The notes below the pieces were generated by a model. That model did not search any database, had not been told where the DNA came from, and saw only the letters and a list, made by a program, of their open reading frames with translations. DNA of 44,031 bases from a virus: IMG/VR virus record IMGVR_UViG_3300031952_000035, positions 1-44,031 of that record. One strand, given 5' to 3'. The position numbers and the translations under genes are program-made. This document shows, one piece after another, positions 9,259 through 39,452 of this stretch; position 1 is the stretch's first letter; every line of letters starts with the position of its first letter.

Positions 9259-12200
9259 ATGCCACCGCTCTCCGATTATAGCCGGACACAGCGGTTATCG
9301 CTGTTCCGCAACATTGATGGCCTGAACACCAAGGCCGCGCCCGATATGGTGGGGCCGGGGAGTCTCATCGGTGTGGACATGGCGAAGATGAATCGCCGCG
9401 GAGCGCTGTCCACGGTGGATGGCTGGCAGAGGCAGTTTTTGACACCCCCGAATCAGTACTCGCTTCTGCTGGATGAAGGATCGAGCATATCATTCCCGAA
9501 CCTGAGTAGGTACGGAGAAAATCCGCGCTTCACGGTAGAGATTACCGTGATGATCCCGAAAATGGGAGACGAGGGTGGACGGATGTACTGGCTCAACAAT
9601 TCCGAAGGGACCGGGTATCCAATCATCGCGATCAGCTATCTCGCTTCTGGAATTATCCATTTTCGCCTGAGAAACAGTACCGTCGGAGGAACCAACTGCG
9701 ACTACTACTCGGTTCGCGCAATCGATTCCGCACACCAGTATCATATCGCTGTTTCTTGGGAGGTTGACATCGCGACCGGGTGCAAGTTCTATATAACCCG
9801 GAAGGGAGAGTCGGCAGTCCTGGACGTTGCGAGTACAACGGAAGGACACGACAGCATGAAAAACAGCGAGACGACTCTCCATGTCGGTTTTGACAGCAAC
9901 GTGGATCCGATCTACGTAAAAGAAGCAAGGTATTGGAACACGATCAGGACGGCGGAACAGATTGCGCTGTATGCCAATGTTGCGCTCGACCCAGACGAAA
10001 TATCCAGATCGGGTGGAGACCTGATCCACTACGCGCCCCTGAACGAATCGACCGGCACTACAATCGCGGATGAATCCATCAATAATTATATGGCCGGAGA
10101 ACATGGCGTGCTCAACCTTCGGGAGGCCGACAGCCTCGTAAAGGGAGGTGTTCGCGCCGCCGATACGTTGGGGACAACGTGGTTTGAATATGGCGCGAAC
10201 GATTCAAGATATTCCATAACGACCGACTGGGAGTTCGAGGGATCGATAAATCTAAACGACTACGATTCCGGCGTCGATCAGGTCATCCGCGAGAGACCGT
10301 CTTCCCACGGGTACGAACACAAGATATATATAGACTACGCGACGAAACTGTTGACGATTCGGTTCAACCTGAACAATTCGCCAACCTTCTCGGCAGTCTC
10401 GCTGGCCGGGGGCGTGAGAATTGTCCCAGGAAAAACATTCCACTGGTCGTTCAAGCGTAACGGCACTTCCTTGAAATGCACCATTATCGAGGAAGGGGAG
10501 GACGCGGTAACGACATCTGCCACGATAGCGGCAACCGCGAATGAACCTGGACTTGTAAACACGCTGGTATTCTTTGCCCTTGCCGGTGCGACCCGATGGC
10601 TAGACGCCGTTGTGGATGAGTTAAGAGCGTGGAAGGGAGCAAGCCGTAGCGATGCCGAGACGGTAGCAAATCTTGGAAGGAAGCTTCCTTACAATCGCAG
10701 AACCGGACTGGTGGGGTATATAAACTTTGACGGAGGGGAGCAGTATATCTCGGGTAGTTACCGGACTGACGGGAACGACTATTCGTTCAAGGGAAACAGC
10801 GGAACTATTTCAGGACTATACACCAGGGCGACATCCACGATCCGCACGATAGGCGGGAACTTCTTCCGGCCCGAGGGATCCGAAGACGAGTACGTTATCT
10901 TCGCCATCGCCGAGACGGCCAGCAACGGTATCATGCTCGGATACAAGCTCTACCGCCTCATCGACGTTGGGATGGTGGCGACCAATCTAGGGTACGCGGA
11001 ACCATTTTACTACTCGTTGCTCTACGAGGATGGATTGATCCCGGTGTTCGCAAACGCTCCAAACGCTTTCTATTTTTCTGACGGGGTGAATCAGAATCGC
11101 AGGTTCCAGAACGATATCCTGCATCTTGTCGGGATCAAGCCTCCCGCGACAGATATTCTGGCTAACGTAGATGTTTCGGGAACATTGCCGAATGGCACAT
11201 GGAAGTTCCTTGTCACCTTCAGCGATCCCCTGAACGGAGTGGAATCAAACGCCGGGCCGGAAACCACCGAGGTAACAACCGACTCGACGAATCACACAGT
11301 ATACCTAGACAACATTCCGCTGAGCGTAACGGATCCTCTGGTAAAAAAGCGGAATCTTTACCGTGCCTACAACTCCGGTGCCGGGTACGGAGCTTTCCAG
11401 TTCGTTGAAGAGCTGGACAATCACATTTCAGGGTACACCTTCGACAAAGACGAGAACGACGCCGTGGACGTAACCCGAATCGCCCCTACCGACCACGACA
11501 TTCCCCCGAGGACGCGGTTCGTGGTCTACAAGGAAGGGATCATCTACGCCGGGGGCCGGTGTCTCTACCGGGCCGGGGACATATCGGGCGTGACGGTGGA
11601 CGAGGAGCATCCGAGTTGGCTGTTCCTGTCGAAGCCCTACAGCATCACCGACCCCGGCGCGATGGACTACTATCCCGCCGATTCAAACTACCTGGAGTTC
11701 AATGTCGGGGAGAATGACGAGATCACCGGGGCATTCGAGCACCAGGACGTGATCTTCGCGTGCTGTAACAACGGCATGTATCTGGCGCAGGGGAGTTACC
11801 TCAGCGACATCGAAACGGACTTCTCGATCAGCCGACTCCATGACAGGGCCGGGGTTGGCGGTCAGGGCGGGATCGTCAAGACCGATAAGGGTGTGTTCCT
11901 GCTCGGGCAGAACGGGTTGTTCCACGTCTGGGGCACCACCGTGCGGGAGATCGGGCGCACGATGATCGAGCCGACCTTGCAGACGTACGTGAACGCCAGC
12001 TACACCGACCGGATCGTGGGCGTGTGGGCGGAACCGAAGGCCGAGGTGTGGTTCGCGACCGGGCCAGCGGGGACCAACACGGCGTTGATCGTCATTGACC
12101 TATCCTCCGGGAGCATTGCGTTTCTGACCCGATCCCGTTCGGTATCGGCGTTGTGGCGGAAGGACACGAATGGCGACGTGTATTCTGGCGACTACACGGG

Positions 12201-24970: not shown

Positions 24971-25004
24971 CTCACACCTCCTTGCTCGGTACTGGAACGA
25001 TGGA

Positions 25005-25205
25005 CTAACCACCGTCGCCGTAGCCGGAGCCGTAGCCGGAGCCGTAGCCGGAGCCGTAGCCGTAGCCGTAGCCGTCGCCGTAGCCGGAGCCGTAGCCGGA
25101 GCCGTAGCCGTAGCCGTAGCCGGAGCCGTAGCCGTAGCCGTAGCCGGAGCCGTAGCCGGAGCCGTAGCCGGAGCCGGAGCCGTAGCCGGAGCCTATATGT
25201 TCCAT
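25005..25205 (-). CDS. Gly/Tyr/Ser dipeptide-repeat protein
   Basis: The 66 aa protein begins MEHIGSGYGSG and is then almost wholly made of GS and GY dipeptides, with two GD (YGDGYG and the end). The start overlaps the last codons of the upstream gene; GGAGAAGG lies just before its ATG. Tyr appears every second or fourth residue. Such Gly/Tyr repeats are known from aromatic-rich phase-separating or adhesive proteins. Expression is plausible because the frame is open, coupled and in register with the neighbours. It could also be a non-coding repeat that happens to be open. Confidence 0.5.
   Translation of the reverse strand: MEHIGSGYGSGSGYGSGYGSGYGYGYGSGYGYGYGSGYGSGYGDGYGYGYGSGYGSGYGSGYGDGG
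25021..25196. repeat. Hexanucleotide tandem repeat
   Basis: About 29 units of GCCGTA or GCCGGA (one GCCGTC pair), read on the plus strand, fill this stretch. Units are multiples of three, so gain or loss of units keeps the minus-strand frame. It encodes the Gly/Ser/Tyr repeats of the gene 25005-25205. Confidence 0.95.
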
Positions 25206-25462
25206 TTCACCTTCTCCGTATCAATAATAGAGATCAGTGCATGCATCGGCACGCGGATCGTCCCCACCTTATCCATCACCGTGTTTTCGTTCGGCCCACA
25301 CAAGGCCAGCTCCCCCAACCCCTTGGTTGTGCCCCACCGTCTCAGATTCATGGCGTTCTGGATCACGCACCAGTCTGTCCCACACTCAACATCGCCAACG
25401 TACACAAACCCCTTGTCCACCACCGTAATCGCAAACCCGGTAAACACTTCACGCTTTTCCAT
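25193..25462 (-). CDS. Small protein of unknown function
   Basis: The 89 aa protein starts at ATG 25462, seven bases after AGGAGG. It is beta-rich (FAITVVDKGFVYVGDVECGTDWCVI) with Cys at about 27 and 32, and a C-terminus that ends in TEKVKWNI. The Gly/Tyr-repeat gene starts within its last codons. Function unknown. Confidence 0.65.
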   Translation of the reverse strand: MEKREVFTGFAITVVDKGFVYVGDVECGTDWCVIQNAMNLRRWGTTKGLGELALCGPNENTVMDKVGTIRVPMHALISIIDTEKVKWNI

Positions 25463-27220: not shown

Positions 27221-28057
27221 CTAGTCCACCATCTTCAGCTTCCGTACTCTCCACTTCGCATCGTTCCCCGGCAGACCCGCGAACAGGATGTCCGCCGCCT
27301 CGAACTCCACGGTCAGCGGGATCAGCTTGTGATCCGGCTCGCACAGCCAGCACCATTCCGGACGATAACCGAGCCGGAGCACGTGCAGGCCCGGCCCGCA
27401 CTGCTGGTCGTCCGCCGTGCCCTCTGCCTCGACAATGGCCCCCCGTGGATACGCAATTGGCGTGCCACCGTCGAAGTTCGGGGACATCCGTGCTTTTGTG
27501 ACCCACTTTGTTGCCCGGATCATTCCGGAGTAAAATCCCCGGATCTGCTCCGCCAGGGCCAGAGACGTTACGCCATCGCCAAGGCTCACGTAGTCGCCCA
27601 GGCGCACGTCGTTGCCCAGGCGCACGTCGTTGCCCAGGCGCACGCCATCGCCAAGGCGCACGTCGTTGCCCAGGCTCACGTCGTTGCCCAGGCGCACGTC
27701 GTTGCCAAGGCTCACGCGGTCGCCAAGGCTCACGTCGTTGCCCAGGCTCACGTCGTTGCCCAGGCTCACGTCGTTGCCAAGGCTCACGCGGTCGCCAAGG
27801 CTCACGCGGTCGCCCAGGCTCACGTCGTTGCCCAGGCTCACGCGGTCGCCAAGGCTCACGCGGTCGCCCAGGCTCACGTCGTTGCCCAGGCGCACGTCGT
27901 CGCCAAGGCTCACGCGGTCGCCCAGGCGCACGCGGTCGCCAAGGCTCACGTAGTCGCCCAGGCGCACGTCGTTGCCCAGGATCACGTAGTTGCCGTTCGG
28001 CAATTTCCGCCAGCCGTTCTCATCCGGTGTGATCGCGTAGATTTCTTCAGCTTTCAT
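27221..28057 (-). CDS. Hexapeptide-repeat left-handed beta-helix protein
   Basis: This 278 aa protein has a 25-residue N-terminus, then 23 hexapeptides of the form L-G-[DN]-x-V-[RS] (residues about 26-165), exactly the [LIV]-[GAED]-x2-[STAV]-x signature of left-handed parallel beta-helices. Each three repeats form one coil, so about 7.7 coils. The C-terminal 110 residues form a separate domain with [16 protein letters not shown] and [10 protein letters not shown], which resembles domains fused to other repeat proteins in phages. No acyl-transferase catalytic residues were recognised. The acidic, regular helix could act as a protein or nucleic-acid mimic. It is coupled upstream by ATGA. Confidence 0.8.
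27570..27994. repeat. 18-bp tandem repeat coding for hexapeptides
   Basis: About 23 units of 18 bp with small variants (for example GCCCAGGCTCACG or GCCAAGGCTCACG followed by TCGTT, CGGTC or TAGTC on the plus strand). It codes for the L-G-x-x-V-x repeats on the minus strand. No unique spacers lie between units. Confidence 0.95.
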
Positions 28058-28548
28058 GGCTTCCTCCCCACCACCGACACCATCATCCTTTTCTTACCCC
28101 ACTCCCGCGCGGCCGCGCAGTCGGGCGTGTAGATGTCAATTACCCGCGGTTCCCCCCGCGCGGCCCACCGCTTTGCCGTCCGCTCCGGGATCGTGTCCCC
28201 GACGTACACGATCCTCTCTCCCTCCCCGCCCCCGGATAACAGGAGCACGGTTCCGCGCGGATACAAACCCCGCGAGACCGCCGCGATCCCCACCCCCGCA
28301 GGGAGACCGCTGGACGTCGTGCCGCTGTCACAATATGCAGTCACAAGGACGGGCTTGTCCGGCACTTGCTGATGACCCAGCCTGAGCACCTCGTCCTGCA
28401 ACGCCGACACGGTGTTGACGCAGGCTTGGACGCCAGCCTCGACGGTGGTGATGCGATCTGTCACACGGATGGACCACAGCGTCATCGTTATCAACCAGAT
28501 TGTTATTGCTGGCCCGAACAGGATCAGGATTGTTTCACGCCGATTCAT
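28054..28548 (-). CDS. Membrane-anchored 3D-domain protein
   Basis: The 164 aa protein has an N-terminal transmembrane helix (residues 7-27), a short coiled stretch, and from about residue 67 a double-psi beta-barrel of the 3D type: VLVTAYCDSG, LYPRGTVLLL, IVYVGDTIPE, VIDIYTPDCAAAREWGKKRMMVSVV. Three Asp residues of such domains match those seen in MltA/YocH-like and resuscitation-factor proteins, which act on peptidoglycan. A membrane-anchored version in the early operon may remodel the cell wall during infection. It is coupled to both neighbours by ATGA overlaps. Confidence 0.8.
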   Translation of the reverse strand: MNRRETILILFGPAITIWLITMTLWSIRVTDRITTVEAGVQACVNTVSALQDEVLRLGHQQVPDKPVLVTAYCDSGTTSSGLPAGVGIAAVSRGLYPRGTVLLLSGGGEGERIVYVGDTIPERTAKRWAARGEPRVIDIYTPDCAAAREWGKKRMMVSVVGRKP

Positions 28549-29078: not shown

Positions 29079-29605
29079 GCCTTGTCCTCCTTCAATGTCG
29101 GTTTAATCCTCGCCCGGATCATCGCGCATAGTGCGACCCCAGATGCCACGGCGGCCCTGGCGGCGGCCCCGGCGGCCCAGTAGGCGGCCCCGGCGGCCCC
29201 GGCGGCCCCGGCGGCCCAGTAGGCGGCCCCGGCGGCCCAGTAGGCGGCCCCGGCGGCGGCCCCGGCGGCCCCGGCGGCGGCCCCGGCGGCCCTGGCGGCG
29301 GCCCCGGCGGCGGCCCCGGCGGCCCCGGATTGCTCCGTGGGATCCGCCAGCCACCTACGGGCGGCCTCTATCGCCAGCCGGGGCCTGTCCTCTCCAGCGG
29401 GAACCAGATGCAGAACCGACTCGGCGAACTCGCACGCCAGGGCAACGTAATCCGCCTGCGTCGCCCATCCCTTTCGCTCCACCAGCCACAGCATCCACTG
29501 TGGGTTTTCCAAATGCTCCCATACCCAAGCGAGATCGTGCTCCCCCACCCAATCAACCCCATCCTGGCAGGCTTCTTTCTTGACAAGCCATTTGCGAAAT
29601 GTCAT
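29075..29605 (-). CDS. Imm5-like helical protein with Ala/Gly repeat
   Basis: I choose ATG 29605, six bases after AGGAGG (176 aa). Residues 40-90 contain ACEFAESVLHL...DRPRLAIEAARRWLAD, matching proteins annotated as putative immunity protein (Imm-5-like), whose C-terminal half is an AAR-rich helical repeat. Here the repeat (residues about 93-155) is Gly-Ala-Ala with GAAYWAAGAA and GAAARAA variants. The repeat is stretched and very GC-rich. The tail MIRARIKPTLKEDKA is charged. The name immunity is a family label; the true function is unknown. Confidence 0.6.
   Translation of the reverse strand: MTFRKWLVKKEACQDGVDWVGEHDLAWVWEHLENPQWMLWLVERKGWATQADYVALACEFAESVLHLVPAGEDRPRLAIEAARRWLADPTEQSGAAGAAAGAAARAAGAAAGAAGAAAGAAYWAAGAAYWAAGAAGAAGAAYWAAGAAARAAVASGVALCAMIRARIKPTLKEDKA
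29148..29324. repeat. GC-only tandem repeat in the Imm5-like gene
   Basis: A stretch made of GGCGGCCCC-type units, often interrupted by CAGTA (encoding Tyr-Trp). Units are multiples of three in the coding frame. GC content is near 90 percent. Confidence 0.9.
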
Positions 29606-30757: not shown

Positions 30758-30970
30758 TCAGTACCCCTTCAGCGCCAGGAAATACCCCAGTATCAGCGTG
30801 CTCTGCCGTCCGGGCACGCAGTCCCGGCGGTAGAGAATCCTGATGAGCGTGTGATAGCTCAACCCGGTTTGACCGGCCAAGTCGGCCAGCCGGATCCCCT
30901 CGCGGGTGCGGTAGCGGTCCAGGCGCCGGACTACCGGCGGCCACCAGCTATGAGGTCGTGTCAGTCTCAT
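30758..30970 (-). CDS. Small helix-turn-helix (XRE-like) protein
   Basis: I choose ATG 30970 (70 aa), which overlaps the end of the previous gene and follows GAGGGC; a TTG start 12 bases upstream is possible. It contains LDRYRTREGIRLADLAGQTGLSYHTLIRIL, a typical XRE-type HTH with LA..TGLS turns, then LSYHTL recognition helix. Probably DNA-binding. It lies just below the internal promoter, so it may act on early genes. Confidence 0.65.
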   Translation of the reverse strand: MRLTRPHSWWPPVVRRLDRYRTREGIRLADLAGQTGLSYHTLIRILYRRDCVPGRQSTLILGYFLALKGY

Positions 30971-31124
30971 GTTTGCCCTCAAGTTCGCGGAGGTTATCCA
31001 GCGCGTTCAGAAGCCGCAACGCCGCGCACCGCATGGCGTGGAGGTCCCGGCGGAGGAACGCATACGCCAGCGAGTCAACGGCATTGCGGACCAAGCTCAA
31101 CGTCTCGGGATTTACGTCCACCAC
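30948..31124 (-). CDS. Small helical protein of unknown function
   Basis: The frame opens at GTG 31124, six bases after AGGAGG; the previous ATG lies upstream of the promoter's expected start, so GTG is preferred (58 aa). Leu/Ala/Arg-rich helices (VDSLAYAFLRRDLHAMRCAALRLLNALDNL, in part) dominate. It is the first gene after the internal promoter. Function unknown. Confidence 0.6.
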   Translation of the reverse strand: MVDVNPETLSLVRNAVDSLAYAFLRRDLHAMRCAALRLLNALDNLRELEGKHETDTTS

Positions 31125-31151
31125 GGTGATCCTCCTTGTTCGATTGCGGGC

Positions 31152-31180
31152 ATCATACCATGCCAGTGATACAAAGTCAA
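31152..31180 (-). promoter_or_regulatory. Internal early sigma70 promoter
   Basis: On the minus strand -35 TTGACT (31180-31175), 17-bp spacer, -10 TATGAT (31157-31152). It lies in the gap between 31217 and 31124. Transcription would start near 31145, giving a short leader before the GTG start. Confidence 0.8.
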
Positions 31181-31216
31181 GAGAAATCCAACATCGGCCC
31201 CATGCCATGCATACGA

Positions 31217-31420
31217 TTATGGTAGGGATACAGAGAGAGCATCCTCCAAGTCATCCGGCATGACCTCCACCGTGAACCCGGGATCCCCGGTTTGCGCTTC
31301 ACGCAAAGCCCGGTTTAATTCCTCGGTTGAGAGAACGGAGAAAGTCGGTTTGCCCGGTCGGGTCCGGGGGTCGGCGAGTACGTAGTCCCCGGTTGCAAGC
31401 CTAGCGATGGTGAAGCGCAT
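31217..31420 (-). CDS. Small beta-rich protein of unknown function
   Basis: Start ATG 31420 with GGGGGCTGAC before it (67 aa). It reads MRFTIARLATGDYVLADPR, then an extended part and acidic tail (PDDLEDALSVSLP). It overlaps nothing and ends 37 bases before the internal promoter. Function unknown. Confidence 0.6.
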   Translation of the reverse strand: MRFTIARLATGDYVLADPRTRPGKPTFSVLSTEELNRALREAQTGDPGFTVEVMPDDLEDALSVSLP

Positions 31421-31421
31421 G

Positions 31422-31658
31422 TCAGCCCCCTTTCCGCGCAAGGGCCATCTCGCAGGAGAGCGCCGCGGCCTCCCCGCGGGCCTCCCGGACGGTCTCCCGG
31501 TCCGCCATGGCCTTGGCGTTGGCCGCGCAGTAGCAGATCCGCCATGCCGACACGATGACGGCGGGGTAGCGGCCGCGTTCGAGGTCCGCGCTTATGCGGT
31601 CGAGTTCCGCGCGGATGTGCTCCCCCGGTTTGCAGGTCTCGCAGAGGTCGCATTTCAC
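31422..31658 (-). CDS. Small Cys-containing helical protein
   Basis: The 78 aa protein has AAGGAGGATGACGTGAA before its ATG. The N-terminus MKCDLCETCKPGEH contains three Cys and a His, and YC at about residue 43 adds another; these may form a metal site. The rest is Ala/Arg/Glu-rich and helical. Function unknown. Confidence 0.6.
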   Translation of the reverse strand: MKCDLCETCKPGEHIRAELDRISADLERGRYPAVIVSAWRICYCAANAKAMADRETVREARGEAAALSCEMALARKGG

Positions 31659-31824
31659 GTCATCCTCCTTGCCCCATGCGGGGCGGTTTCGATTCCCGGT
31701 TTATCCGCAAGGCCCCCCGGTTCCGGGGTAGGTCGGGCATCGGCGGCAATCCGATACGTGATCGGGTGGTTGTTTTTCCGCTTGCCCGGCCAAGTCTCCC
31801 GCGGACCAGGTCGGCCTTGATGGT
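31659..31824. other. Gene-poor gap with hairpins before a ribosome site
   Basis: No convincing gene was found. On the minus strand it holds CCCCGG-AA-CCGGGG and, next to the AAGGAGG ribosome site of the gene at 31658, CCCC-GCAT-GGGG. Similar hairpins precede other early genes. A 26-codon minus frame from about 31730 lacks support. Confidence 0.5.
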
Positions 31825-32172
31825 CTACCCGATCTTGTGCCACCTGTCCGGACAGGCCCACCCTTGGACGAGCTCCGCTACATTGCCCCCGATGATCGTA
31901 ATGGAGATGTACCGGAGTGTCGATGCCCCCCGCGTGCAGGAGCAGAGATCGATCTTCCCGTTCGTGCCCCATGCCAGAAGGTATGCGGCCCTGGAGATCC
32001 TTCCTCCGTAGACCGCGTAGCACCTACGGCATGTCCGGGCATCCCGTCCGTAGAGCATCCGACAGACGCTCGGATCGGATTCCGCGACCGGGGTCCCGCA
32101 GGCCGGGCAAGCGTAATCCTCGGAATGTTTCCTCTCCTCGATCCGCCGGTCGGTTTCGTTCGTCCGTTCCAT
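31825..32172 (-). CDS. Cys-rich zinc-binding protein, unknown function
   Basis: The 115 aa protein starts after AGGAGGATAAAAA. It has CPACG (22-26), CRM (37), CRRC (48-51) and CSC (about 76-78), enough for two zinc sites. The start region (25 bp including the first codons and ribosome site) is identical to that of the gene at 34686, so both begin MERTNET. The C-terminus is beta-rich with ISITIIGGNVAEL. Function unknown. Confidence 0.65.
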   Translation of the reverse strand: MERTNETDRRIEERKHSEDYACPACGTPVAESDPSVCRMLYGRDARTCRRCYAVYGGRISRAAYLLAWGTNGKIDLCSCTRGASTLRYISITIIGGNVAELVQGWACPDRWHKIG

Positions 32173-32177
32173 TTTTT
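32153..32177. repeat. 25-bp direct repeat, copy 1 (shared gene start)
   Basis: Identical to 34667-34691. It covers the ATG, first codons (MERTNET) and the upstream T-run of the minus-strand gene. The homology continues, with changes, through the AGGAGG ribosome site. Confidence 0.85.
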
Positions 32178-32199
32178 ATCCTCCTGTTTCTCTACCTCG

Positions 32200-32421
32200 T
32201 TAGATAGCAACGTGAAAAAACTGTCTGTACGTGTCGCATGCTTGCGGATAGGGGACCGGAGATACATAGTATACGACTTGTAACGTCGCATGCGTACCAT
32301 CGAGAAGGATATTGTACCCCTTGATCCTTGTCAGCTTTAAGTTCTGTTTTTCGCAAACAGCCTTGATTTCCTTCCTGCATCCGCGGACCATGTTCTGTAG
32401 TTCCTGATCGGTGTACGTCAT
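32200..32421 (-). CDS. Small protein of unknown function
   Basis: The 73 aa protein has AGGAGGATAAGAAA before its ATG. It is helical at the N-terminus (DQELQNMVRGCRKEIKAVCEKQNLKL) and then beta (GYNILLDGTHATLQVVYYVSPVPYP). A short helix-strand-strand fold of this kind could be RNA- or protein-binding. No family recognised. Confidence 0.65.
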   Translation of the reverse strand: MTYTDQELQNMVRGCRKEIKAVCEKQNLKLTRIKGYNILLDGTHATLQVVYYVSPVPYPQACDTYRQFFHVAI

Positions 32422-32453
32422 TTTCTTATCCTCCTGTTGATCAGCCTGTGGTC

Positions 32454-32501
32454 TCCCCCGGTTTGCTATCCCCGGTTTGCCGCCCGCCTCCTGAAATCCT
32501 C
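32454..32501. repeat. 48-bp direct repeat, copy 1
   Basis: Exact match to 32800-32847. It covers the last codons (EDFRRRAANRG), stop and start of the gap after the gene 32466-32780. Confidence 0.95.
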
Positions 32502-32780
32502 AAGTAATCCCTCTGCAATCTCCATCCAGTTCACGCGTCCCAATGCACCCGCAAGAAGATCCGAGTAGATCCCGTTCGTCAATTCCGGCATCCCCTCCTC
32601 GTGCTCCTCCTGGAGCCGTTTCTCCAAGGTGTAGATTGCATCGTCCTTGTCTTTCGCATCCTCCGCTATCTCCTCCGCCGCGCCGTTCCAGTAGTTGCAG
32701 GATCCCTCGTCGTTCGCAATCCAGAGATTCGCCGCCCACGTTTCCCGATTTGAGTACCCGTTACACCGTTCATTTTCCAT
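32466..32780 (-). CDS. YSNRETW-type small phage protein
   Basis: The 104 aa protein has GGAGGATGCG before its ATG. MENERCNGYSNRETWAANLWIAND matches a recurring N-terminal motif in phage and archaeal-virus proteins of unknown function. Then follow an acidic helix (EEIAEDAKDKDDAIYTL) and a conserved-type C-terminus (VNWMEIAEGLLEDF). It lies between 48-bp exact direct repeats, so it looks like a removable cassette. Its last 11 residues are identical to those of the upstream gene. Confidence 0.75.
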   Translation of the reverse strand: MENERCNGYSNRETWAANLWIANDEGSCNYWNGAAEEIAEDAKDKDDAIYTLEKRLQEEHEEGMPELTNGIYSDLLAGALGRVNWMEIAEGLLEDFRRRAANRG

Positions 32781-32793
32781 CGCATCCTCCTTT

Positions 32794-32805
32794 GGGGTTT
32801 CCCCC
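32794..32805 (-). promoter_or_regulatory. GNRA-loop hairpin before a ribosome site (copy 1)
   Basis: Minus-strand GGGG-GAAA-CCCC, two bases before AAGGAGG and the ATG at 32780. The same hairpin precedes the genes at 33024 and 33347. Confidence 0.7.
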
Positions 32806-32847
32806 GGTTTGCTATCCCCGGTTTGCCGCCCGCCTCCTGAAATCCTC
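32800..32847. repeat. 48-bp direct repeat, copy 2
   Basis: Second copy of 32454-32501. It spans the last codons and stop of the gene 32812-33024 and part of the hairpin module. Confidence 0.95.
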
Positions 32848-33024
32848 CTCGATGCCCGCGGCGGTCTGTGCCCCGCCGGACTGGTGCCAGCCAGTCTCCG
32901 ACTGGGTGCCGATTGAGTACCAGCGGGCATGGGGGCTGTGCTGGTACGCGGTAATCACTCTCACGTTCAGTCCCAGTTCCCGCGCCACCCGGTTCAGCCG
33001 GTTACACGTTCTCTCGCAGATCAA
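32812..33024 (-). CDS. Small basic protein sharing its tail with the next gene
   Basis: I prefer TTG 33024 (70 aa), six bases after AGGAGG; ATG 33030 touches the ribosome site with no spacing. The sequence begins ICERTCNRLNRVARELGLNVRVITAY and continues with WYSIGTQSETGWHQSGG. It ends EDFRRRAANRG, identical to the next gene. Function unknown. Confidence 0.6.
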   Translation of the reverse strand: MICERTCNRLNRVARELGLNVRVITAYQHSPHARWYSIGTQSETGWHQSGGAQTAAGIEEDFRRRAANRG

Positions 33025-33036
33025 GCCCATCCTCCT

Positions 33037-33050
33037 GGGGGGTTTCCCCC
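33037..33050 (-). promoter_or_regulatory. GNRA-loop hairpin before a ribosome site (copy 2)
   Basis: Minus-strand GGGG-GAAA-CCCC (with one more C) directly adjoins AGGAGG of the gene starting at 33024. Confidence 0.7.
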
Positions 33051-33053
33051 GGT

Positions 33054-33347
33054 TTACAGTCCCGCCCTCGCCGCCTCCGCCCTCGCCGCCTCCGCCGCCG
33101 CCCACTCCTCCGCCTCCGCCCACTCCGCCCGCGCGATCGCCCACTCCGCCGCCGACGCTCTCGCCTCCTCCTCCGCCGCCCACTCCGCCCGCGCGATCGC
33201 CGCCGACCTCGCCGCGATCGCCGATCCTTCCGTCCTGTTCGTCCCGGCCAACCAGCTCACCGCCCACCGCTCCACCGATTTGATGCCGCAGTGGAGCGCG
33301 TAGTTTTTCACCGCCACGTTTGCCCGCCGCACCTTTTCCATTTCCAT
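33054..33347 (-). CDS. Ala/Glu/Trp helical-repeat protein
   Basis: Start ATG 33347 after AGGAGGAAACG (97 aa). The first 45 residues are ordinary (MEMEKVRRANVAVKNYALHCGIKSVERWAVSW). From residue 45 on, a degenerate helical repeat ARAEWA / AAEEEARASAAEWA dominates. This matches the AAR-type repeats of Imm5-like phage proteins, as in the gene 29075-29605. The plus-strand sequence here is CCGCC-rich. Function unknown. Confidence 0.65.
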   Translation of the reverse strand: MEMEKVRRANVAVKNYALHCGIKSVERWAVSWLAGTNRTEGSAIAARSAAIARAEWAAEEEARASAAEWAIARAEWAEAEEWAAAEAARAEAARAGL

Positions 33348-33358
33348 CGTTTCCTCCT

Positions 33359-33370
33359 GGGGTTTCCCCC
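33359..33370 (-). promoter_or_regulatory. GNRA-loop hairpin before a ribosome site (copy 3)
   Basis: Minus-strand GGGG-GAAA-CCCC directly adjoins AGGAGG of the gene starting at 33347. Confidence 0.7.
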
Positions 33371-33381
33371 GGTTTGTAAGC

Positions 33382-33474
33382 CTATGAATTTGCCTTGTAG
33401 ATAACCCATGCAAGCCGTACGGCATAGGCAATCGGTAAGGCAAGGGTCAAGAGAACTGATTGAATCTCGCTCAT
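33382..33474 (-). CDS. Very small membrane protein (30 aa)
   Basis: An ATG at 33474 after AGGGAGGATACC opens a 30 aa frame: MSEIQSVLLTLALPIAYAVR then a short polar end. One hydrophobic helix spans most of it. The ribosome site is strong and the frame fills the gap between neighbours, so translation is likely. Function unknown. Confidence 0.7.
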   Translation of the reverse strand: MSEIQSVLLTLALPIAYAVRLAWVIYKANS

Positions 33475-33486
33475 GGTATCCTCCCT

Positions 33487-34140
33487 TTACTGTTTCGGCC
33501 CCTTAAGGTTTCCAGCCTCGATGTATTGCAAGGCTTCCCTGAAGTTGTTTTTTACGTTCTGAAGGAGCTTTTTATAGGCTTCTATGGGTTCGGCCTTGGC
33601 CGGAAGATCCTCCAATTCGGCGATCTCCCGCGCGCGCGCGGCGAATGCGTCCGAGCAAGACCGGATAGCAAGCTGGATCCGTATACAGCGAGAGAGTAGC
33701 GGTCCAGCGTCGACTTTATCATCGAATAGGTCCGCTTGTGCCTCGCTAGTCGTTGTAAAAATCCACGCCACATGTTCCGGAATATCCTCCAGTAAGACGA
33801 GCAGGGACCGGATGATATCCTTCCTTAATCCATGAGATTCGTTGATAATGAACGCGCGGCCGCCCTTTCCGCCTGCGTAGGTATGCGCCGAATAATCCCA
33901 ATCACGCAGTCGGTCGGGGGTAAGTTTCCCACCGTCAACCTCTTCGATATACAGATCATCTGCAATCATTCCCGCAATCACGCGCGCGAGCGTCGTTTTA
34001 CCATGACCGGATTTGCCGCTTATCCAGTACGCGCGTCCGCCAAGTCCCCGGTTTGCAAGCGTACGGATTGTCTCGACCGCTTCCGGTTGCCCGATGATCC
34101 CGTCGAGCGTTCCAGGACGGTATTTATCCGCAAGATTCAT
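33487..34140 (-). CDS. Clamp-loader-like AAA+ ATPase
   Basis: The 217 aa product starts after AGGGAGGATCAATC. It has ADKYRPGTLDGIIGQ (4-18), the usual opening of clamp-loader small subunits and DnaX; Walker A SGKSGHGKTT (41-50); a Walker B-like AFIINESHG where Asn-Glu replaces Asp-Glu; sensor-1 FTTTS and the clamp-loader SRC motif (LLSRCIRIQ). The lid and collar domains of full loaders are shortened. No sliding clamp or DNA polymerase gene is seen. It may recruit the host clamp or load host helicase. Confidence 0.8.
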   Translation of the reverse strand: MNLADKYRPGTLDGIIGQPEAVETIRTLANRGLGGRAYWISGKSGHGKTTLARVIAGMIADDLYIEEVDGGKLTPDRLRDWDYSAHTYAGGKGGRAFIINESHGLRKDIIRSLLVLLEDIPEHVAWIFTTTSEAQADLFDDKVDAGPLLSRCIRIQLAIRSCSDAFAARAREIAELEDLPAKAEPIEAYKKLLQNVKNNFREALQYIEAGNLKGPKQ

Positions 34141-34175
34141 GATTGATCCTCCCTACAGATTTTCGGCCTTCTTCC

Positions 34176-34204
34176 CCGTAGGATCCGGCTTGCGGACCCT
34201 ACGG
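34176..34204 (-). promoter_or_regulatory. 12-bp hairpin in the leader of the clamp-loader-like gene
   Basis: 34176-34187 pairs with 34193-34204 (one G-U pair in the RNA), five-base loop. It lies between the stop at 34240 and the start at 34140. No T-run follows on either strand, so it is not a simple terminator. It may control expression of the ATPase. Confidence 0.6.
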
Positions 34205-34239
34205 CGAAGGGGGATCCTCCAGATCCCACGCCGGGATTG

Positions 34240-34686
34240 CTATTTCGTGGCCATGGCTACCATCCCCGCGAGATCCAAGACCTCCCGGAAGTAGTTTTCC
34301 CAGATCTCCCGGAGGAGATCCAGATCCGCGCCGTCCAGCTTGACCGTCGCGCCGTCGTACCAGTCGAGGAAAACGTACTCCACCCGGTCGAGGCTGAAGG
34401 CCGGATCGCAGTAAAAACGGAACTCGTCTCCAGGTCCTCCCGTCGAAAGCTGCCAGAGGAAATAACCGGTTTTCGGGTCGGGGAGCATGGATAATCGGAT
34501 GGATAAGTTGAACGTCCCCGCCGCGACGTAATCAAAACAGAGCCCGTACTCGTTCAGCGTCCCATGATCGGGATCCCCGTTTTCGTCCCCGGCCTTCTCC
34601 AGATCCCAGAGTTTCCGGATCACGTCAACCTCTTCGCACAAGCTCCTCCGGATCCTCTCCTCGCATGTTTCGTTCGTCCGTTCCAT
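34240..34686 (-). CDS. First leftward early gene, unknown function
   Basis: The 148 aa protein starts after AGGAGGAAGAAAAA and is the first gene below the main early promoter. Its beginning, MERTNETCEERIRRSL, copies the start region of the gene at 32172. The body is acidic and beta-rich (TGYFLWQLSTGGPGDEFRFYCDPAFSLDRVEYVFLDWY, in part), and a helix ends it. First early genes are often takeover proteins. No family recognised. Confidence 0.65.
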   Translation of the reverse strand: MERTNETCEERIRRSLCEEVDVIRKLWDLEKAGDENGDPDHGTLNEYGLCFDYVAAGTFNLSIRLSMLPDPKTGYFLWQLSTGGPGDEFRFYCDPAFSLDRVEYVFLDWYDGATVKLDGADLDLLREIWENYFREVLDLAGMVAMATK

Positions 34687-34691
34687 TTTTT
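34667..34691. repeat. 25-bp direct repeat, copy 2 (shared gene start)
   Basis: Second copy of 32153-32177, at the start of the first early gene. Confidence 0.85.
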
Positions 34692-34742
34692 CTTCCTCCT
34701 GTTTCTCTGCCTCTTCCTCTACCTCAATCTCTACCTAACTCC

Positions 34743-34771
34743 ATTATAGGAGATATAAGGATCAGAGTCAA
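34743..34771 (-). promoter_or_regulatory. Main leftward early promoter
   Basis: Minus strand: -35 TTGACT (34771-34766), 17-bp spacer, -10 TATAAT (34748-34743). It is nearly a perfect sigma70 consensus and lies 57 bases before the first early gene. The surrounding 34711-34912 gap holds this and the facing plus-strand promoter; no further gene is seen there. Confidence 0.9.
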
Positions 34772-34876
34772 GGAAAAAGAGAGAAAAACGTCAATAAATC
34801 GTGACGGCATATCTTGTGCCCCAAGCGGGAAAAAGGCCGAAATACCACAAGGGAAAGCGTACGGGGGAAAAAGGGC

Positions 34877-34905
34877 TTGACGCGCGAGAGGATCAGGAAT
34901 AGGAT
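34877..34905 (+). promoter_or_regulatory. Rightward promoter before the nuclease gene
   Basis: -35 TTGACG (34877-34882), 17-bp spacer, -10 TAGGAT (34900-34905). Expected +1 is at the A of the ATG at 34913, so the transcript would have no leader. Confidence 0.6.
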
Positions 34906-34912
34906 CCGGATC

Positions 34913-35167
34913 ATGGATAAGGAATATAAAAACAAGGCGGAAAGGGAGTTTGCAGAAACGGCGGAAAAGAACGGGTGGAGAGTAACAAAGCGCGGCTATC
35001 CTGATTTTATCTGCTATCGTGGTGATGATTTGATGCTCGTTGAAGTTAAGGGGAAGCCTGGAAGAAAATTAAAGAGAACGCAACACAGCTTGATGAGAAT
35101 CCTTAAAAGAAAATATGGCGTGAAATGCTTCCGCTGGACGCCTTCGGTAGGATTTTCGGATTACTGA
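34913..35167 (+). CDS. Small PD-(D/E)XK nuclease (VRR-NUC-like)
   Basis: The 84 aa protein has KRGYPDFICYRGDDLMLVEVKG: Pro30-Asp31 and Glu44-Val-Lys46 give the PD...E-x-K active site, preceded by Glu10 in an N-terminal helix. This is the minimal VRR-NUC/resolvase-like fold of phages. It would cut branched DNA or act in recombination. The promoter predicts a leaderless message starting at this ATG. It is one of only two plus-strand genes between the early and late regions. Confidence 0.75.
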   Translation: MDKEYKNKAEREFAETAEKNGWRVTKRGYPDFICYRGDDLMLVEVKGKPGRKLKRTQHSLMRILKRKYGVKCFRWTPSVGFSDY

Positions 35168-35213
35168 AAAGCGCGGGGAAAGAAACCTTAAGGAAGAAAG
35201 GGGTTCTTGGGGT

Positions 35214-38655: not shown

Positions 38656-39452
38656 GACTCCTTGCCGTAAATATGCTCATACTGGCTCTTCTCAACCGCC
38701 GGAGCTGGCTGAAACTTCGGGCGGTCCTGCGCCCGTGAAAGCCAGTTCGTGAGAAACCTCGGTCTGTTGACCTTGCGCTTCTCTGGATTCGCAACCTCCC
38801 AAGCGTTCGCCTTCCTGACTTCTGCTACCACGTCCACACCCGGGTACGCCTTCACCCACACCGGCAGGAGAGTTGCCCACCGGTCACACAGCTTTTGGTC
38901 TTCAGCGTAAAGTTCAAGGTCTGCAAGCTCAGGCGGAACGTCGGCTCGGAGGGATGGCTTTCCATCGCTCCGAGCAGTACCCTTCTTTTCTTGTTCTTCT
39001 GGGCCTCTTAGCCTCTTAGCTTCTAGGCCTCTATGCGTTACATGAGGCGTTACATTCGGCGTTACATCCACCGTTACATCTGGCGTTACATGAGCGTTAC
39101 ATTCAGCCTTCAACCTGAACGCCCGCACGCGATTCTTCAAGTTCTGTCGCTCTTTAACCTCTCTTTTCAACCTTCTGCATACGAGCGTTACATTCCCGTT
39201 ACCGTCATCGTAAAAATCGCATATTTTATTTGACGAAAACGATAATTTAATGCGCTCGGCAGTTGTAGAAGTGCATCCCCAGACCCGCGCCCACCCTTCC
39301 AAACTCTCGGTGATCTCGAACGTGCCGTCATGCCACATCACGCACAGGGTATTGATCCACGCGCCGCGCACTTCAATCGTTGCGCGTTGCAGGTTCATGT
39401 CCGAGAGCCAATCGCTGTACCAGAACTTCTCCCACTTCAGTCTGGAGTTCAT
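38652..39452 (-). CDS. Replication initiator/helicase-loader-like protein
   Basis: The 266 aa protein is coupled to both neighbours by ATGA. It has an N-terminal winged-helix-like domain (KFWYSDWLSDMNLQRATIEVRG..., residues 8-110) and a charged linker containing repeats of VTP or VTV (residues about 118-140). The C-terminal domain (residues 165-260) resembles DnaT/DnaD-type loader domains in character. The VTP repeat is encoded by the GTTACAT iterons of the likely origin. The arrangement copies that of lambda O: an initiator that carries its own binding sites. Confidence 0.75.
   Translation of the reverse strand: MNSRLKWEKFWYSDWLSDMNLQRATIEVRGAWINTLCVMWHDGTFEITESLEGWARVWGCTSTTAERIKLSFSSNKICDFYDDGNGNVTLVCRRLKREVKERQNLKNRVRAFRLKAECNAHVTPDVTVDVTPNVTPHVTHRGLEAKRLRGPEEQEKKGTARSDGKPSLRADVPPELADLELYAEDQKLCDRWATLLPVWVKAYPGVDVVAEVRKANAWEVANPEKRKVNRPRFLTNWLSRAQDRPKFQPAPAVEKSQYEHIYGKES
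39037..39250. other. Candidate replication origin: iterons plus AT-rich region
   Basis: Six GTTACAT copies start at 39037, 39049, 39061, 39073, 39085 and 39096, that is four steps of 12 bp and one of 11. A seventh is at 39187, followed by GTTACC at 39198. Next to it, 39208-39250 is AT-rich (TAAAAATCGCATATTTTATT and ATAATTTAAT), a good unwinding element. All of it lies inside the loader gene. Confidence 0.8.

Follow-up and report, generated by a model that had tools for sequence, protein, structure and literature searches.

Introduction

Cluster K mycobacteriophages carry start-associated sequences (SAS/ESAS). The SAS, with the 13-bp consensus GGGATAGGAGCCC, has 11–19 copies per genome and recurs across related phages. 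These short repeats are joined to the ribosome sites of a number of adjacent non-structural genes, mostly in one orientation, and their function is unproven (PMC3203893, PMC12699233). Small CUUCGG hairpins were described between the genes of T4 and further phages (PMC8948821), and in the T4 genes e, 25 and 38 leader structure either inhibits or helps initiation (PMC3014915). Furthermore, short conserved boundary sequences were proposed as seeds of phage mosaicism (PMC3029335). Within the open-licence PMC literature, we found no closer precedent for hairpins or repeats of the kind described here.

Genome and locus

The window, i.e., the entire stretch of DNA analyzed, spans 44,031 bases and corresponds to an entire virus record, both ends of which carry a 127-base direct repeat. 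Genes matching portal, scaffold, capsid, internal virion protein and terminase are encoded on the plus strand, while those on the minus strand include a DnaB-like helicase, a methyltransferase and a RecA/Sak4-like ATPase. A search for tRNAs gave none. The locus under study is a block of small minus-strand genes between two promoter-like sites, 34771-34743 and 31180-31152, both being consensus matches only. Transcription of the leaders likely begins at the first of these. A terminator candidate at 32792-32807 was rejected, as it is a plus-strand match and such matches occur at chance level (7 vs. 6.6). The features of the locus are:

34743..34771, minus strand: promoter-like TTGACT-17-TATAAT, 11 of 12 consensus positions, 5' of gene 34686
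33353..33375, minus strand: leader copy 1, AAACC + GGGG-GAAA-CCCC + AGGAGG, 5' of gene 33347-33054 (97 aa, Ala/Glu/Arg-rich)
33031..33055, minus strand: leader copy 2, two additional C between hairpin and AGGAGG, 5' of gene 33024-32812 (TTG start, 70 aa)
32786..32810, minus strand: leader copy 3, AA separating hairpin from AGGAGG, 5' of gene 32780-32466 (104 aa, DUF7249)
32448..32464, minus strand: leader copy 4, degenerate with two substitutions and a broken stem, 5' of gene 32421-32200
31671..31684, minus strand: hairpin GCCCC-GCAT-GGGGC, sequence unrelated to the leaders, 1 base before AGGAGG of gene 31658-31422 (GTG start)

The hairpin sequence GGGGGAAACCCC occurs exactly three times in the window, on the minus strand only (32794-32805, 33039-33050, 33359-33370); if one mismatch was allowed, shuffled sequences contained 0.55 matches on average and 4 of 100 reached at least three. 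The original prediction placed GGGG-GAAA-CCCC 0 to 2 bases before AGGAGG in three consecutive genes, and this proved correct, with measured minus-strand gaps of 0 (gene 33347), 2 (33024) and 2 bases (32780). The upstream stop codon precedes the hairpin by 11, 3, and 6 bases, in the same order, while the spacing from SD to start is normal (5–6 bases). For gene 33024, TTG was taken as the probable start (spacing 6), since no base separates the ATG at 33030 from AGGAGG. The DUF7249 match of the gene 32780 product has an E value of 7e-9.

The similarity extends beyond the hairpin. Three exact copies of the 17-mer AAACCGGGGGAAACCCC and one with two mismatches (32448-32464) were found, all on the minus strand, against none of a reversed control pattern; of the 17 bases identical in the three copies, five lie outside the hairpin on its 5' side. 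As a repeated sequence, the element is above chance: AAACCGGGG was counted 9 times where 0.44 were expected, a number that none of 100 shuffles reached. The fourth copy is separated by 12 bases from the AGGAGG (32430-32435) of gene 32421 and reads GAGA at the loop position, a GNRA-type sequence above a broken stem.

Comparison with known phage elements

Like SAS, the leader is a short repeated sequence directly at the ribosome sites of adjacent non-structural genes in one orientation, although this resemblance concerns only how it may work. It comprises three copies and a degenerate one in a single phage, whereas SAS, with its 11–19 copies in each genome, is found across related phages. Furthermore, SAS contains AGGAG within itself, while here the SD adjoins the repeat. 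The consensus GGGATAGGAGCCC, if up to 2 mismatches were allowed, gave one match in the window (11664-11676, 2 mismatches) vs. 1.6 expected. The leader is thus SAS-like in position, but it is not a SAS.

The nearest hairpin precedent are the CUUCGG hairpins, which are likewise small, stable tetraloop hairpins between genes of phage operons. However, the leader loop is GAAA or AAAC rather than C(UUCG)G, and T4-type hairpins occur at many loci, whereas the leaders are duplicates of each other. CTTCGG itself is not enriched in the window (29 vs. 35 expected). The described T4 gene leaders resemble our locus in that a hairpin is found where translation of a phage gene begins. The hairpins of T4 genes 25 and 38, however, are situated between SD and AUG, whose spacing they shorten, whereas here the hairpin is located 5' of an SD with normal spacing. 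Boundary sequences, as far as reported, are comparable in being short common sequences at gene junctions flanked by unrelated genes, but the duplication of our leader is seen within one genome, with no exchange seen in a second.

Duplication of gene starts

Besides the leaders themselves, longer segments of the block were found to be duplicated. The junctions of genes 32780 and 32421 have 55 bases in common, including the end of the upstream gene:

32447..32501, minus strand: duplicated block, upstream gene end plus leader, 96% identical to 32793-32847
32793..32847, minus strand: partner of 32447-32501, 55 bases at 96%

The proteins upstream of these two junctions both end with EDFRRRAANRG and are alike in little else. 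Similarly, the minus-strand genes 34686 and 32172 share leader, SD and first codons (MERTNET), while the rest differs; the alignment of their proteins is weak, being equalled by 8 of 300 shuffles. The neighbouring genes 30497 and 30288, also on the minus strand, have 22 of 23 start bases in common, and their products share the first eight residues (MRLILRLV) and are related over about 45 residues, which makes them a tandem gene duplication. Duplicating gene-start segments is a habit of this leftward block. Given these repeated duplications, the three hairpins are most simply explained by common descent, and the leader copies most likely descend from one leader via local duplication.

Predicted folding of the leaders

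The original prediction emphasized the GAAA loop. In the predicted folds, this register reaches pair probabilities of 0.91–0.92 in the copy before 33347 and 0.88–0.89 in that before 32780, while the copy before 33024 adopts it with a probability of only 0.02 and favours a five-pair stem with an AAAC loop. The stem of the fourth copy pairs with a probability of at most 0.07. Compared to shuffled leaders, the five leader folds are unremarkable (z-scores −0.83 to +1.13). In the copies before 33347 and 33024, the two leading G of the SD are predicted to pair with the upstream CC (unpaired probability 0.04–0.22). When the hairpin was forbidden, mean SD openness in the first copy rose from 0.58 to 0.74, whereas it barely moved in the other two (0.67 to 0.68 and 0.70 to 0.70). 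Thus, the predicted effect of the hairpin, if any, would be a slight masking of the SD. A covariance-model search against Rfam (31000-35200, both strands) delivered no match up to E = 1.

The hairpin at 31671-31684 is predicted to fold with pair probabilities of 0.99–1.0. It had been presented as similar to the other three and is indeed present 1 base before AGGAGG; however, it has no sequence in common with them and may be a coincidence. With respect to the genome as a whole, 6 of 44 good-SD starts on the coding strands are preceded by a G-C hairpin whose end is no more than 6 bases away from the SD, whereby gene 33024 is left out, another start being chosen for the stop at 32812, and two of the six are copies of each other. 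Shuffling gave a mean of 2.7 (28 of 500 shuffles reached 6), and 3.7 were expected from random coding-strand windows. Nor is the mean MFE 5' of SDs lower than at random positions (−3.0 vs. −3.5 kcal/mol). With a count near chance and folding energy that is not lowered, we do not regard a genome-wide habit of placing hairpins before SDs as established. As a separate observation, a nine-pair hairpin, GTCCACGAA-AAGAAG-TTCGTGGAC, is found a short distance before the SD of the plus-strand gene 4986.

Occurrence in other genomes

A search of other phages for the hairpin together with AGGAGG had been proposed as a check. In IMG/VR, the GAAA hairpin followed by AGGAGG within 6 bases was detected in 14 stretches (9 distinct contexts), while a control with the same stem and the reversed loop AAAG gave 12 stretches (8 distinct contexts). 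By a loose test, a start codon is possibly in reach in 8 of 14 GAAA stretches (3 of 9 contexts) and in 9 of 12 AAAG stretches (5 of 8). GAAA is about as frequent as its scrambled counterpart, and we therefore dropped the idea of a GNRA enrichment before AGGAGG. Three bacterial matches to the pattern, from genome contigs, are single sites lacking the AAA prefix and probably due to chance. The exact 17-mer AAACCGGGGGAAACCCC occurs in 10 IMG/VR stretches, by our own estimate about the chance number, and none of them adjoins AGGAGG. One IMG/VR record (L012, 1809-1832, minus strand) contains a longer stem, GGAAGGGG-GAAA-CCCCTTCC, directly before TTAGGAGG at a likely gene start; it illustrates only that such arrangements can occur.

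No relatives of the leader were found in the viral and phage collections searched. Among viral contigs, searches for close relatives led to one locus for the AAA ATPase, none for DUF7249, one for the helicase, three for the capsid and none for the terminase, all at 26–29% identity. Comparison of the first 25 kb by megablast and of 31200-35000 by blastn against phages gave no match. The capsid protein pointed to 14 distant phage records, all below 60% identity (about 25–33%). In the whole records of three such distant capsid relatives the 12-mer is absent, and AAACCGGGG is present in 0, 0, and 0 copies.

A clustered motif within the block

The leader is built upon a shorter motif, AAACCGGG, of which 12 copies occur in the window, on the minus strand only and all within 30863..34054:

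34054, 33375, 33055, 32824, 32810, 32478, 32464, 31702, 31631, 31316, 31293, 30870, minus strand: first bases of AAACCGGG

No other 8-mer of the masked minus strand is as clustered: 12 copies fall within 3.3 kb, whereas the highest count that any 8-mer attained in 60 simulations was 8. After masking of the four leaders, the block retains 6 copies vs. 0.20 expected, and none of 400 simulations reached 6. Although the motif was derived from the leaders before being tested on the rest, the block limits were drawn post hoc, which makes these block figures somewhat flattering. The absence of AAACCGGG elsewhere in the window, on either strand, is unaffected by the choice of limits. Coding copies of the core AACCGGG are translated as NRG/NRV/NRA, KPG, and ATG/QTG, i.e., in three reading frames. 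Consequently, amino-acid choice does not account for these copies. The clustering of AAACCGGG is more surprising than the duplicated leader. At the edge of the cluster, a small ORF (30758-30970, minus strand) shows a weak helix-turn-helix match below the Pfam cut-offs.

Discussion

Taken together, the repeat is real and probably an ordinary duplicated leader. We consider it reasonably probable that a single intercistronic leader was duplicated locally between neighbouring small genes and gave rise to the three hairpins, and that any effect would be a modest one on coupling or spacing rather than GNRA-specific. The duplication itself is evident from the identity past the hairpin, the decayed fourth copy, the copied flanks, which reach into the final part of the preceding gene, and the other duplicated starts. 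Recombination at the short repeat GCAAACCGGGG, which is abundant in the early-gene block, probably copied the leaders, and every copy would then act as an ordinary ribosome-site leader. The small G-C hairpin may fold in the stretch from the upstream stop codon to the SD, and it might at most nibble at the latter, as copies 1 and 2 would do through two CC:GG pairs. Since ribosomes terminating 11, 3, and 6 bases upstream should melt the hairpin, a modest effect at most is to be expected.

Two observations do not sit easily with an ordinary leader. The three copies that abut an SD have an intact stem and the one at a distance has a broken stem, as would be expected under selection on the stem, albeit with n = 4; and the unrelated hairpin before 31658 occupies the same position. 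In addition, a functional element could as well be preserved by recent duplication. If the leader is ordinary, the locus would be a clear example of a phage copying whole gene-start leaders between unrelated small genes. It would also be a warning that repeated hairpins may be co-inherited rather than individually selected.

A possible, though doubtful, reading goes one step further and regards the repeat as a neutral, G-C-rich leftover that does not affect expression, the hairpin being a by-product of its GGGG and CCCC runs. That shuffled leaders fold about equally well fits this view, whereas the intact stem at every SD-abutting copy and the similar stem at 31658 do not. As this reading and the modest leader have the duplication step in common, our confidence in the one partly overlaps with that in the other.

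As the main rival idea, one might speculate, although we think it rather unlikely, that a protein of the phage or of its host recognizes AAACCGGG(G) on the early unit, either as DNA operator or as mRNA site, with the hairpin leader as one of its contexts. All 12 copies on one strand (30.87–34.05 kb), the 6 copies left after masking (null mean 0.20, 0 of 400) with none elsewhere, and coding copies in three frames for which protein sequence offers no explanation are in line with this idea, as is the putative helix-turn-helix ORF at the downstream edge of the cluster, below cut-offs as its match is. However, the copies are irregularly spaced and found in intergenic, gene-terminal and mid-gene positions, and the motif is asymmetric, which would be unusual for an operator of a Cro/C1-type protein. 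Moreover, masking covered the four leaders only, so that other short duplications are a possible source of the remaining copies, and the three distant relatives lack AAACCGGGG. If AAACCGGG were a binding site, it would constitute a phage-specific regulon signal. In its strongest form, (GC)AAACCGGGG would be a new sequence-specific control signal with about a dozen sense-strand sites in one early unit, read in DNA or mRNA by a putative phage factor; the start hairpins would be its strongest sites, and binding would mask or expose the three ribosome sites jointly. To us, this elaborate scheme appears quite improbable.

The original prediction compared the hairpins to SAS, as modules that may act as a set. 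The part that stands is positional: neighbouring genes do share a sequence fused to the ribosome site. That the GAAA loop is what matters is, in contrast, not supported, as the identity extends beyond the hairpin in the 5' direction, no stem is left in the fourth copy, and the copy before 33024 is predicted to adopt another register. The loop had further been proposed as a docking element. The 11-nt GAAA-tetraloop receptor is UAUGG/CCUAAG; for this receptor type, we found 0 matches in the window in either order with spacers of 3–30 bases. It is very improbable that a GNRA-capped module stabilizes the mRNA or docks to a receptor and so regulates the genes as a set: although loop and stem are exact in three copies, pair at about 0.9 in two of the three, and even the fourth copy still reads GAGA despite its broken stem, the register is disfavoured before 33024, GAAA is not commoner than AAAG before AGGAGG in IMG/VR, neither an 11-nt receptor in the window nor an Rfam match (up to E = 1, 31000-35200) was found, and in two copies the helix reaches into the SD, suggesting hindrance rather than help.

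Other repeats in the genome

A second clustered motif, ATGTAACGC, near 39.0–39.1 kb was discarded, since it is mostly a 12-base repeat array. Coding arrays of short units are present at 27498-28066, 24976-25233, 29120-29362, 33060-33220, and 39042-39101, with units of 18, 12, 9–12, and 12 bases. Among these short-unit coding repeats is a hexapeptide array inside the protein encoded at 28057-27221.
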